Below, piece after piece: positions 36,986 through 63,693 of a stretch of 64,000 nt of DNA. This DNA is from an uncultured Bacteroidota bacterium (lineage in GTDB: Bacteria > Bacteroidota > Bacteroidia > Flavobacteriales > Flavobacteriaceae). Each line of letters opens with the position of its first letter. Position 1 is the first letter of the stretch. The position numbers and the translations under genes were made by a program. The DNA lies in contig CAIWKX010000045.1 in assembly GCA_903913315.1 (NCBI GenBank), forward strand, positions 1 through 64,000, read 5' to 3'. The notes under the pieces were generated by a model. That model was given only the letters and a program-made list of their open reading frames with translations, was not told where the DNA came from and searched no databases.

Positions 36986-37255
36986 TTATTTTCTAATACC
37001 TAATTCTTTAATTAATTCACGATATTTCACAACATCTTTTTTCTTCAAGTAATCAAGAAGAGCTCTTCTTTTTCCTACCAAAAGAACTAATGAACGTTCT
37101 GTGTTGTAATCATGACGATTTTTTTTCAAGTGCTCAGTCAAGTGAGTGATTCTAAATGTGAATAACGCTACTTGTCCTTCTGTAGAACCTGTGTTTTCAG
37201 CTTTTCCTCCGTGTTTAGCGAAGATTTCAGCTTTAGTTTCTTTACTTAAATACAT
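36986..37255 (-). CDS. rpsO: 30S ribosomal protein S15
   Basis: GSTEGQVALFTFRITHLTEHLKKNRHDYNTERSLVLLVGKRRALLDYLKKKD. Confidence 0.98.
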   Translation of the reverse strand: MYLSKETKAEIFAKHGGKAENTGSTEGQVALFTFRITHLTEHLKKNRHDYNTERSLVLLVGKRRALLDYLKKKDVVKYRELIKELGIRK

Positions 37256-37386
37256 TCCAATATTATTTTAAATGATTATTATGTATGAATTAAGATTTTC
37301 TCAATTCGAGCGCAAAAGTACACTTTTTTTTTAAAAACACAAGAAAAATAGCTGTTTATTGATATTTTTTTGCAAATAATTTGTCA

Positions 37387-46459: not shown

Positions 46460-46681
46460 AATATAATTTATTTTAAATTAATTTTTGTGAAGAAAATAAG
46501 AAAATTGCAAAGGAAATACTAAAGAAGAGTTTCTGCTTTAGCATTTTTTAACGAGGTTGCAATCAGTTCAAATTTTTCCTCTTTTTATCTGAGGCAAATG
46601 TATAAACTCATTTTTAAATATAAACCCATTTTTTCAAATATTTTTTTATATTTGCTAAAATTAAATTAAAACAATATAAAT

Positions 46682-47776: not shown

Positions 47777-47806
47777 CACCGTTAAGTTCATTTAACTTAT
47801 TGAAAT

Positions 47807-47906
47807 GTTATAAAGAAAGCCGGAGGGAATAGACCCGATGAAAGCTTAGCAACCCTACCTTGTAGAAGGTGCTACATTCTATCCTGATTTATTGGGAGAA
47901 GATAAC
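47807..47906 (+). promoter_or_regulatory. SAM (S-box, SAM-I type) riboswitch aptamer
   Basis: GTTATaAAGAAAGCCGGAGGGAATAGACCCGATGAAAGCTTAGCAACCC...AAGGTGCTACATTCTATCC...GGGAGAAGATAAC: conserved GGAGGGA, GACCCGATGAA, GCAACC, AAGGTGCTA and P1 GTTAT/ATAAC. Confidence 0.95.
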
Positions 47907-47974
47907 ACAAGATTTTCTAGTTTTTTCTAGCCTTTCTTTTATAATATTTTGCAATTGTATAATTAAAGAAAGAT

Positions 47975-59294: not shown

Positions 59295-59465
59295 AACTTG
59301 ATATTTGTAGCAAATGTAATAAATACTAAGAGAAATTAAAATCAATAATGTTAATAACGGTTAAATAGCCTTTTTATGATTTTACGAAAACGTTTCCGTA
59401 ACTTTTTTTTAATTTTTTGTAATGGCTTAACATTTTTTGTTACTTTAGCAAAACATAAAACAGCA

Positions 59466-59558
59466 ATGACCACAAAAGTAAACACATATTTTAGCTATTT
59501 CTTTTATTTCTTCTTCGGACAGAAAAAGGGATTGGTATTGTGTTATGTGAAAAAGTAA
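59466..59558 (+). CDS. Phe/Tyr-rich leader peptide (attenuator) upstream of pheA
   Basis: MTTKVNTYFSYFFYFFFGQKKGLVLCYVKK*; aromatic run YFSYFFYFFF at 59487-59516; followed by antiterminator and terminator elements and then pheA. Confidence 0.88.
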   Translation: MTTKVNTYFSYFFYFFFGQKKGLVLCYVKK

Positions 59559-59579
59559 AAGACGAAACAAACAATATAT

Positions 59580-59608
59580 AATCCCGATGTAAATCGGGAT
59601 TTTTTTTT
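59580..59608 (+). terminator. Attenuator terminator in the pheA leader
   Basis: AATCCCGAT-gtaa-ATCGGGATT + TTTTTTT, immediately before pheA ATG 59616. Confidence 0.9.
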
Positions 59609-59615
59609 GAATATA

Positions 59616-60443
59616 ATGAAAGAAAAAATTGCCATACAAGGAATAAAAGGATCATTCCATCATCAAGTTGCCTTAGAATATTTTCAAGAAAATGTTACTA
59701 TTAATGAATGTTTATCCTTTGAAGCGCTTGCCGATAGTTTGCTAAGCAATCTATCACAATTAGCCGTTATGGCTATAGAAAATTCTATTGCGGGTTCTAT
59801 TATTCCAAATTATGCGTTGATTGACGACAATAATTTTTATATTATAGGCGAATATTATTTGGATATTATTCAAAATTTGATGGGGTTAAAAGAGCAACGT
59901 TTTGATGAAATTCAAGAAGTACATTCGCACCCTATGGCGCTGTTGCAATGTATGGATTTCTTGAAAAAACATCCACAAATCAAATTAGTAGAAGATAAAG
60001 ATACCGCTGAGACTGCAAGAAGAATTCATCAAAATCAAATAAAAGGAATTGCTGCAATTGGAAGTAGAGTAGCCGCGGAATTATATGACTTAAATATAAT
60101 TGCGCCAGAAATTCAAACAGTCAATAACAACATGACTCGTTTTTTTATCATTAGTAAAGAAAAGGAAAAAGGTAATAATGACGAAATTAACAAAGCGTCA
60201 TTAAAATTTGAATTGGATGATACACCAGGAAGTTTAGCAACAGTCTTAAATGTAATGACTAATTGCAAGCTAAATTTAACCAAAATTCAGTCAATGCCCA
60301 TTATAGAAACTCCTTTTCAATACTCATTCTTTGTAGATGTAGTTTTTGAAAAATACAAACATTATGAAAAAGCGACAAAGATTTTACAATTGATGACCAA
60401 TCATTTTAAGGTGTTAGGAGAATATAAGAATAGAAAAATATGA
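59616..60443 (+). CDS. pheA: Prephenate dehydratase
   Basis: IAIQGIKGSFHHQVALEYF; AIENSIAGSIIPNYALI; EVHSHPMALLQC; ACT domain LKFELDDTPGSLATVL; start at ATG within ORF 59607. Confidence 0.95.
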   Translation: MKEKIAIQGIKGSFHHQVALEYFQENVTINECLSFEALADSLLSNLSQLAVMAIENSIAGSIIPNYALIDDNNFYIIGEYYLDIIQNLMGLKEQRFDEIQEVHSHPMALLQCMDFLKKHPQIKLVEDKDTAETARRIHQNQIKGIAAIGSRVAAELYDLNIIAPEIQTVNNNMTRFFIISKEKEKGNNDEINKASLKFELDDTPGSLATVLNVMTNCKLNLTKIQSMPIIETPFQYSFFVDVVFEKYKHYEKATKILQLMTNHFKVLGEYKNRKI

Positions 60444-61585
60444 TTACAACAGCAAAAAGACTTGATAGTGTTCAGGAATACTACTTCTCAAGAAAATTAA
60501 AAGAAGTAAGACAACTCATGTCTGAAGGAAAACCTATTATCAATATGGGTATTGGAAGTCCAGATTTGGCTCCGCATTCATCAGTAATTGAGGCGATACA
60601 AAATGCATTATTTGATGAAAAAGCTCATGAGTATCAAAGTTATCAAGGATTGCCTGAATTGCGTCAAGGTTTTGCTGATTTTTATGCAACTAATTTCAAT
60701 GTTGAATTAAATTCAGTTAACGAAATTCTTCCATTGATGGGTTCCAAAGAAGGAATTATGCATGTTTCATTAGCTTTTTTGAATGAGAATGATGAAGTAT
60801 TAATTCCAAATCCGGGATATCCAACCTATGCTTCTGTAACAGAATTGGTTCAAGCTAAAGCAATTTATTATGATTTATGTGAAAACAATGGTTGGCAACC
60901 CGATTTTGAAGAACTTGAAAAAAAGGATTTATCTAAAGTGAAATTGATGTGGGTTTGCTATCCGCATATGCCAACAGGAGCCAATGCAACTTTAGACTTG
61001 TATCAAAAACTAATTAATTTCGGAAAAAAACATAATATTTTAATTGTAAATGACAATCCGTATAGTTTTGTTTTGAATAATAATCCGTTGTCAATTTTTC
61101 AAATTGAAGGTGCGAAAGAAATTGCTTTGGAATTAAATTCTTTGAGTAAAACCTTCAATATGGCAGGTTGGCGTGTGGGGATGGTTGCAGGAAACGCTAG
61201 TTTGATTGATGCAGTTCTAAAAGTAAAAAGCAATATGGATAGCGGAATGTTTTATGGTATTCAAAAAGGGGCTATTGCTGCTTTACAATTGGGGAGAGAT
61301 TGGTTTGAAAGTCAGAATGAAATTTATTCAAAAAGAAGAAATCTAATCTTTCAATTGGCTCAAAAAATGAATTGCGCTTTTGATATCAATTCTGTTGGAT
61401 TGTTTGTTTGGGCAAAATTACCTGAGGGGAAACAATCAGAAGAATTTATAGATTATTTATTATATGAAAAACATTTATTTCTGACGCCAGGAACTATTTT
61501 TGGGAACAATGGCGAAGGATACATTCGATTTTCATTATGTGTAAAAGAAGAAAATATAGTAGAAGCAATAAAGAGATTTCAATAG
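60440..61585 (+). CDS. Class I/II PLP-dependent aminotransferase
   Basis: NMGIGSPDLAPHSSVIEAI; NPGYPTYASVTEL; NSLSKTFNMAGWRVGMVAGN. Confidence 0.94.
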   Translation: MITTAKRLDSVQEYYFSRKLKEVRQLMSEGKPIINMGIGSPDLAPHSSVIEAIQNALFDEKAHEYQSYQGLPELRQGFADFYATNFNVELNSVNEILPLMGSKEGIMHVSLAFLNENDEVLIPNPGYPTYASVTELVQAKAIYYDLCENNGWQPDFEELEKKDLSKVKLMWVCYPHMPTGANATLDLYQKLINFGKKHNILIVNDNPYSFVLNNNPLSIFQIEGAKEIALELNSLSKTFNMAGWRVGMVAGNASLIDAVLKVKSNMDSGMFYGIQKGAIAALQLGRDWFESQNEIYSKRRNLIFQLAQKMNCAFDINSVGLFVWAKLPEGKQSEEFIDYLLYEKHLFLTPGTIFGNNGEGYIRFSLCVKEENIVEAIKRFQ

Positions 61586-61688: not shown

Positions 61689-62531
61689 ATGAAAGTATTT
61701 ATAATAGGAACAGGATTAATAGGAGGTTCAATGGCATTAGATATGAAATCAATTTATGATGATGCGACTATTTTTGGAATTGATGCTGATGAGAAACATC
61801 TTTATGAAGCACTACATCTCGGAATCATTGATGAAAAATCAACTGAAAGTGATTTAATTAACGCAGATTTAGTGATTGTTTCGGTGCCAGTTGATGTCGC
61901 TTTAGTAATTTTGCCCAATATTTTGAATGCGATTGGAGAACAAACATTGGTTTTTGATGTTGGATCTACTAAAAGTCCAATATGTGATGTTATTTCAACT
62001 CATCCGAAAAGGAGAAACTTTATGGCATGTCATCCAATTGCAGGTACAGAGTTTTCAGGACCCAAAGCAGCAATTAAAGGCTTGTTTGAAGGCAAAACCA
62101 ATATCATTTGTGAGGTGGAAAAGACCACTTTCAAATTGCAAGAAAAAGGAATGGATTTGTTTAAAAAATTAGGAATGCGCATACGTTATATGGATCCAAA
62201 ATCGCACGACAAACACATTGCTTATGTCTCGCATTTGTCACACATAAGTTCTTTTATGTTAGGTAAGACAGTCATTGAAAAAGAGAAAGACGAACAAGAT
62301 ATTTTTGATATGGCAGGATCTGGTTTTGAAAGCACCGTACGTTTAGCTAAAAGCTCCCCAGCCATGTGGACTCCCATTTTTAAACAAAATAAAAAGCAGG
62401 TGGTAAAGTCGCTAGAGGAATATATTTTGAATTTGACTCATTTTAAAGAGTTACTTGAAAATGATAAGTATGAAGAGGTATTTAATGAAATGCAAAACAC
62501 GAATAGAATTAAAGAAATACTAAACAGGTAG
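61689..62531 (+). CDS. tyrA: Prephenate dehydrogenase
   Basis: MKVFIIGTGLIGGSMALDMK; ACHPIAGTEFSGPKAA; HDKHIAYVSHLSHISSFML. Confidence 0.95.
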   Translation: MKVFIIGTGLIGGSMALDMKSIYDDATIFGIDADEKHLYEALHLGIIDEKSTESDLINADLVIVSVPVDVALVILPNILNAIGEQTLVFDVGSTKSPICDVISTHPKRRNFMACHPIAGTEFSGPKAAIKGLFEGKTNIICEVEKTTFKLQEKGMDLFKKLGMRIRYMDPKSHDKHIAYVSHLSHISSFMLGKTVIEKEKDEQDIFDMAGSGFESTVRLAKSSPAMWTPIFKQNKKQVVKSLEEYILNLTHFKELLENDKYEEVFNEMQNTNRIKEILNR

Positions 62532-62607: not shown

Positions 62608-63693
62608 ATGGAAAATAATAAAGAAATGAGAACGTGGTTGAATGATTTTAATTTGCCACACCCAATTGTAATCGCTGGACCATGTAGTGCAGAAACAGAA
62701 GAACAAGTTTTGAAAATTGCTCATGAATTGAAAGATTCAAAAGTATCGGTTTTTAGAGCGGGAATTTGGAAACCAAGAACACGTCCGGGAGGATTTGAAG
62801 GCGTGGGTGAAATAGGTTTGAAATGGTTGCAAAAAGCCAAAGCAGAAACAGGTTTGTTGATGGCGGTTGAAGTAGCCAACGCCGCTCATGTGAAGTTAGC
62901 ATTAGAGCACGATATAGACGTGTTATGGATTGGTGCACGAACTACCGTCAACCCATTCGCAGTGCAAGAAATTGCAGATGCCTTGCAAAATACTGATAAA
63001 ATTGTCTTAATAAAAAACCCTGTGAATCCAGATTTAGCTTTGTGGATTGGTGGTGTAGAGCGATTGTATAATGCAGGAATTAAAAAGCTAGGAATTATTC
63101 ATAGAGGGTTTTCAACGTATGAAAAAACTAAATATAGAAACAATCCTGAATGGCAAATTGCTATTGATTTCCAACATAAGTTTCCTGATTTACCATTAAT
63201 TATTGATCCATCACACATTACGGGGAATAGGGAAATGATTTTTCAAGTGTCGCAAGAAGCATTGGATTTGAATTATGACGGGATGATTATTGAAACACAC
63301 ATTGATCCTGATAATGCATGGAGTGATGCTGCTCAACAGGTAACTCCAAGTCATTTAAAAAAAATCATTTTCGATTTAACTATCCGTAAAGAAACCGATG
63401 AAGCTGATGATTACCAACAAAGACTAAACAAATTGCGTGGAAAAATAGATGAATTTGATGCTAAATTATTAGACGTTATTGGAAAAAGAATGAAGGTAGC
63501 TGAAGATATTGGTGCTTTAAAAAAAGAAAAAAACGTAGCGGTTTTGCAAAACAAACGATGGAATGAAATTCTTGATAAAATGGTAGCTGACGGAAATCAA
63601 AAAGGATTGAGTGAAGAGTTTATTGTTCAATTTTTCAAAGCCATTCACCAAGAAAGTATTACACATCAAGAGAAAATATTTAATCAATTATGA
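62608..63693 (+). CDS. Bifunctional 3-deoxy-7-phosphoheptulonate synthase / chorismate mutase
   Basis: IAGPCSAETEEQVLKIA; RAGIWKPRTRPGGFEGVG; IDPSHITGNREMI; C-terminal chorismate mutase helix bundle LRGKIDEFDAKLLDVIGKRMKVAEDIGALKKE. Confidence 0.96.
   Translation: MENNKEMRTWLNDFNLPHPIVIAGPCSAETEEQVLKIAHELKDSKVSVFRAGIWKPRTRPGGFEGVGEIGLKWLQKAKAETGLLMAVEVANAAHVKLALEHDIDVLWIGARTTVNPFAVQEIADALQNTDKIVLIKNPVNPDLALWIGGVERLYNAGIKKLGIIHRGFSTYEKTKYRNNPEWQIAIDFQHKFPDLPLIIDPSHITGNREMIFQVSQEALDLNYDGMIIETHIDPDNAWSDAAQQVTPSHLKKIIFDLTIRKETDEADDYQQRLNKLRGKIDEFDAKLLDVIGKRMKVAEDIGALKKEKNVAVLQNKRWNEILDKMVADGNQKGLSEEFIVQFFKAIHQESITHQEKIFNQL

Follow-up and report, generated by a model that had tools for sequence, protein, structure and literature searches.

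The window analysed here, a 64-kb stretch of DNA (64,000 nucleotides), carries an aromatic amino acid operon which begins with pheA and continues with the genes for an aminotransferase, a prephenate dehydrogenase and a DAHP synthase fused to a chorismate mutase (DAHPS/CM). This gene order, pheA-aminotransferase-tyrA-DAHPS/CM, is common to most Flavobacterium relatives. The upstream neighbour, gldA, is divergent and lies on the other strand, and therefore a terminator ahead of pheA can serve only pheA and not the upstream gene. The elements found in front of the operon, its genes and some other RNA elements of the window are collected in Table 1.

Table 1. Features of the pheA operon, its leader region and further RNA elements of the window
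Feature	Positions	Strand	Basis and remarks
Promoter-like site, Bacteroidota type	59417..59448	+	TTG-N21-TACTTTAG; from sequence; directly upstream of leader ORF
Leader-peptide ORF, 30 aa	59466..59558	+	MTTKVNTYFSYFFYFFFGQKKGLVLCYVKK; ATG 59466, TAA 59556-59558; sequence and conservation
Sensor codons, 6 Phe and 3 Tyr in 10	59487..59516	+	Sequence, third-position variation
Antiterminator 5' arm	59528..59541	+	GGGATT-GG-TATTGT; pairs with 59571-59585
Antiterminator 3' arm	59571..59585	+	ACAATA-TAT-AATCCC; overlaps terminator 5' arm; sequence and RNAduplex
Intrinsic terminator (predicted)	59580..59608	+	9-bp stem (-12.3 kcal/mol) and T run; from sequence
pheA, prephenate dehydratase, first gene of operon	59616..60443	+	PF00800, E 9e-57; NF008865 best match, below its cut-off
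Aminotransferase class I/II	60440..61585	+	Profile searches
tyrA, prephenate dehydrogenase	61689..62531	+	NF006307, above its cut-off
DAHP synthase fused to chorismate mutase	62608..63693	+	PF00793 and PF01817
S15-Flavobacteria ribosomal protein leader (RF03161)	37253-37320	-	73.4 bits
SAM-II riboswitch before metK	46528-46587	-	
SAM-I riboswitch before homoserine dehydrogenase-like / O-succinylhomoserine sulfhydrylase cluster	47805-47908	+	

A preliminary description of this DNA had pointed out a 30-codon ORF with nine aromatic codons out of ten, and its coordinates were confirmed to the base, the codons of the run being TAT TTT AGC TAT TTC TTT TAT TTC TTC TTC. According to a six-frame scan, this is the densest 10-codon stretch of Phe and Tyr codons in the entire window, and shuffling the intergenic region 4000 times never produced a short ORF with at least nine such codons in ten. 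Two runs of eight Phe/Tyr codons were encountered genome-wide, neither of which was taken as a leader: judged from its context, the first reads as a Lys/Glu-rich coding sequence on the opposite strand, and the second would by its letters read as Lys/Ile codons. Among 26 leaders of the window's subclade, the run always ends in the residues Y-F-F-F, even though these four codons carry 12 synonymous third-position changes. In view of the high U content of Phe and Tyr codons and of the A+T-rich genome, one might suspect that the run works as RNA, providing a protein- or RNA-binding site or a pausing site, and that the ORF is incidental. We regard this as extremely improbable, given that the aromatic identity is held in frame despite the T/C swaps at third positions, that in-frame TGG (Trp) codons occur and that the shuffles never reproduced the run. 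Codons for both Phe and Tyr are present in the run of all 141 analysed leaders, and Trp codons occur as well in 34 of the 63 leaders of the wider set, compared to 14 of 78 from Flavobacterium. The codon mix on which the operon had been proposed to sense both Phe and Tyr is thus real, but because Trp codons are added in many relatives, the sensor is better described as "aromatic" than as one for Phe and Tyr alone.

The distribution of the leader was followed from close to distant relatives. We sampled 80 pheA loci of Flavobacterium, 79 of which were evaluable (L020 begins inside pheA and was left out), and a Phe/Tyr-rich leader was present at all 79. It was also found in 53 of 56 other Flavobacteriaceae genomes (46/49 and 7/7). 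Of the 31 genomes that represent other orders of the class, 22 carry it at a threshold of at least six aromatic codons in ten, and two more score five. The class in question should be Bacteroidia, as expected for a Flavobacterium. No recognisable leader was detected in the remaining 3 of the 56 family genomes and in about one third of the other class members, nor in the two genomes representing a second family of the same order (L113, L200). Among 45 genomes from outside the class, only two (L215 and L219) have a convincing aromatic leader; a G/C hairpin likewise precedes pheA in both, which hints at transfer or at an even earlier origin. The other loci from outside the class, many of which come from one family, served as a rough negative control.

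Upstream of the leader, a motif of the -7 type (TAnnTT[TAC]G) occurs within the 45 nt preceding the ORF in 126 of 139 cases, whereas 8 would be expected from shuffled sequences. Downstream of it, the terminator described earlier just before the prephenate dehydratase gene was confirmed; its stem is formed by AATCCCGAT (59580-59588) and ATCGGGATT (59593-59601), followed by T to position 59608. The pattern is single in the 3.36-Mb assembly when searched as AATCCCGATN{2,6}ATCGGGATTTTTT, i.e. AATCCCGAT-N2-6-ATCGGGATTTTTT. A terminator consisting of a hairpin and a T run is predicted at all 141 leader loci analysed, the T run being nearly perfect (median 9 of 9, minimum 6). The hairpin ends close to the pheA start codon in Flavobacterium, at a median distance of 14 nt from the ATG, which would suit a translational mode of control where the hairpin blocks initiation and is opened by the ribosome on the leader, with no transcription termination involved. 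This mode appears highly improbable in view of the near-perfect T run behind the hairpin at every one of the loci and of distances to the ATG of up to 98 nt in some relatives.

The complementarity of the competing helix that had been read between the leader ORF and the 5' part of the terminator was also borne out, the two arms forming a duplex of -13.4 kcal/mol (RNAduplex). Both helices covary among the relatives, and the arms of a given genome pair far better with each other than with those of other genomes: across the set of 63 genomes, the mean pairing energy was -14.4 kcal/mol for own arms vs. -10.3 kcal/mol (sd 0.35) for swapped ones, with none of 5000 permutations performing as well, and shuffled leader arms reached a mean of only -6.8 kcal/mol. 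With one genome per terminator type, defined by distinct terminator 5' arms (n = 28), the comparison gave -15.25 kcal/mol for own vs. -10.35 kcal/mol (sd 0.53) for permuted arms, a value that 20,000 permutations never reached for the own pairs. Permutation tests of this kind leave shared ancestry partly in. A single inherited coincidence is unlikely because of the many arm types. Moreover, the arm motif (A/G)GGATTG falls in any of the three reading frames depending on the species, and in some it lies at the stop codon or beyond it, indicating that it is conserved as RNA. An ordinary constitutive terminator accompanied by a chance ORF might be considered because the genome contains a similar hairpin behind a different gene (L002). 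Yet such an arrangement is contradicted by conservation, since all three elements (aromatic run, terminator and alternative helix) are retained beyond Flavobacterium as far as other orders of the class, the arms covary and the terminator is placed between the promoter motif and the first gene; we assign it next to no likelihood.

The peptide itself deserves separate consideration because its tail, GQKKGLVLCYVKK, is kept as amino acids with synonymous changes in the window's subclade. This would fit a TnaC-like arrest in which the nascent peptide together with free Phe/Tyr or another ligand, rather than an uncharged tRNA, stalls the ribosome. Aromatic-codon density alone is common to all relatives, whereas order, flanks and tail vary between genera, and some leaders have their stop codon only 2-4 codons past the run, which makes nascent-peptide arrest very unlikely compared to stalling at the codons of the run.

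The geometry of the leader is that required for a sensor based on stalled ribosomes. In the 141 loci, the last aromatic codon and the start of the antiterminator 5' arm are separated by a median of 11 nt (range 5-18), with a median of 14 nt in the wider set, which places the arm where the leading edge of a ribosome held up in the run would lie. Footprint sizes were assumed to be the standard values for E. coli. With these, a stalled ribosome leaves the arm free and an advancing one blocks it, although the block at the stop codon is partial in the window: a ribosome standing there has a footprint of about 59538-59568 and reaches over the 3' part of the arm alone, leaving GGGATT uncovered. The earlier view that a ribosome reaching the stop at 59558 covers the arm therefore holds only for that 3' part in the source genome, whereas in the wider set nearly the whole arm is masked (median 1.0). 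Several short leaders (L037, L038, L045, L046, L058, L064 and L076) end with a stop codon placed directly where the antiterminator arm begins (TAAGGATTG) and offer a naturally occurring test of the masking model.

RNA folding with ribosome masks, a check proposed in the preliminary description, gave a divided answer depending on the transcript length. When the transcript was cut short of the terminator 3' arm, the antiterminator formed with a mean probability of 0.70 if the ribosome was stalled, of 0.10 if it stood at the stop codon and of 0.53 if there was no ribosome; the corresponding values for the window were 0.66, 0.21 and 0.64. For the full-length leader at equilibrium, the terminator was favoured in every ribosome state, with mean probabilities of 0.81 (stalled) and 0.96 (at stop), and still 0.93 in the window with the ribosome stalled. 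Equilibrium folding as the sole account was therefore rejected, because it did not reproduce the switch seen with the shortened transcripts. Since the terminator wins at equilibrium even when the ribosome is stalled, the switch must be kinetic and decided during transcription. The protector or pause (1:2) helix is weak in the fold of the window, and on average no strong helix was observed; the formation of the antiterminator about half of the time without any ribosome (0.53) likewise argues against a strong protector helix of the enterobacterial type.

Taken together, the region contains a short Phe/Tyr-rich ORF upstream of pheA, an intrinsic terminator between the two, and an antiterminator which cannot coexist with the terminator and is preserved through covariation. 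The classical architecture of ribosome-mediated attenuation suggested before is well supported by these elements, and we conclude with high confidence that the leader represents a predicted ribosome-mediated transcription attenuator of the operon, a reading based on sequence elements, conservation, covariation, geometry and folding under masks. RNA polymerase would start just upstream of the leader, which would be translated by a ribosome following it. If charged Phe or Tyr tRNA were short, the ribosome should stall within the aromatic run, with its leading edge ending just before GGGATTGG, and the arm left free could pair with ACAATA-TAT-AATCCC as soon as this was transcribed. By tying up the terminator's 5' half, this pairing would let the polymerase enter pheA-AT-tyrA-DAHPS/CM. 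With charged tRNAs available, the ribosome would pass over the arm or reach the stop codon, blocking the antiterminator, and the terminator would form. The parts of this scheme that we infer are where transcription starts, that the leader is translated and ribosomes stall on it, that transcripts actually terminate or read through, and that the operon responds to Phe/Tyr. Tentatively, and with a confidence slightly short of even, we further propose that all these leaders derive from one ancestral attenuator which pre-dates the diversification of the class, senses all three amino acids via mixed Phe/Tyr/Trp codons and has no strong protector helix, so that untranslated leaders would tend to read through.

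Compared with Rfam families, the leader gave only sub-threshold matches, and no fitting family was found. The enterobacterial Phe_leader (RF01859) shares a leader peptide with a Phe run, an antiterminator overlapping the terminator and the position upstream of pheA, but the score of 24.3 bits at a gathering cut-off of 55 bits provides no evidence of sequence-structure homology. Unlike its enterobacterial counterpart, the leader described here mixes Phe, Tyr and often Trp codons, precedes an operon which also includes tyrA and DAHPS/CM, and has shown no strong protector helix. The T-box riboswitch model did not match the leader or the window. Bacteroid-trp (RF01692), which shares the phylum and the logic but presumably senses Trp and controls trp genes, had no match in the window at its cut-off of 49 bits, and the pheA leader does not fit this model. 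In the source genome, a Bacteroid-trp leader (73.6 bits) precedes trpE; it contains a WWW run and has a terminator of its own.

The trpE region is present on two near-identical contigs, L158 (G000:C278) and L159 (G000:C145), each with the leader MNSILNNTWWWNNLRQTS and a terminator; TCACGAC, located in the loop and 3' arm of this terminator, is the complement of GTCGTGA at the leader stop. The duplicate contigs possibly reflect two strains in the assembly. A hisG gene was not found in the assembly (98.6% complete), which thus offers no second leader for comparison at that gene; the organism may be a histidine auxotroph, or there may be a gap at this position. Within the window, the SAM-II and SAM-I riboswitches listed in Table 1 belong to different classes and lie 1.3 kb apart.

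Attenuators in Bacteroidetes/Chlorobi were reportedly predicted by the groups of Vitreschak and Lyubetsky between 2004 and 2010. In an RNA-seq study of the F. psychrophilum transcriptome from 2021, structured 5' transcripts conserved in Flavobacteriaceae were described upstream of pheA and hisG, together with clues to leader-peptide attenuation in amino-acid operons (PMC9723704). Judged from the available portion of that paper, its pheA element is very probably the same as the leader described here, and its main text, to the same extent, does not give the codon run, the arms, their covariation or the range outside the family. The attenuator is of the classical kind and the element has been partly reported before in Flavobacteriaceae, leaving a modest novelty; relative to the accessible part of this report, the exact anatomy, the class-wide reach, the covariation of the arms and the Phe/Tyr(/Trp) codon mix are new. 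The pheA leader is a good candidate for an Rfam entry beside Bacteroid-trp. The results provide an exact and testable anatomy for an apparent regulator of Phe/Tyr synthesis across a class where leader-peptide attenuation has hardly been studied, and because the mechanism needs a ribosome pacing the polymerase, they bear on transcription-translation coupling in these bacteria.
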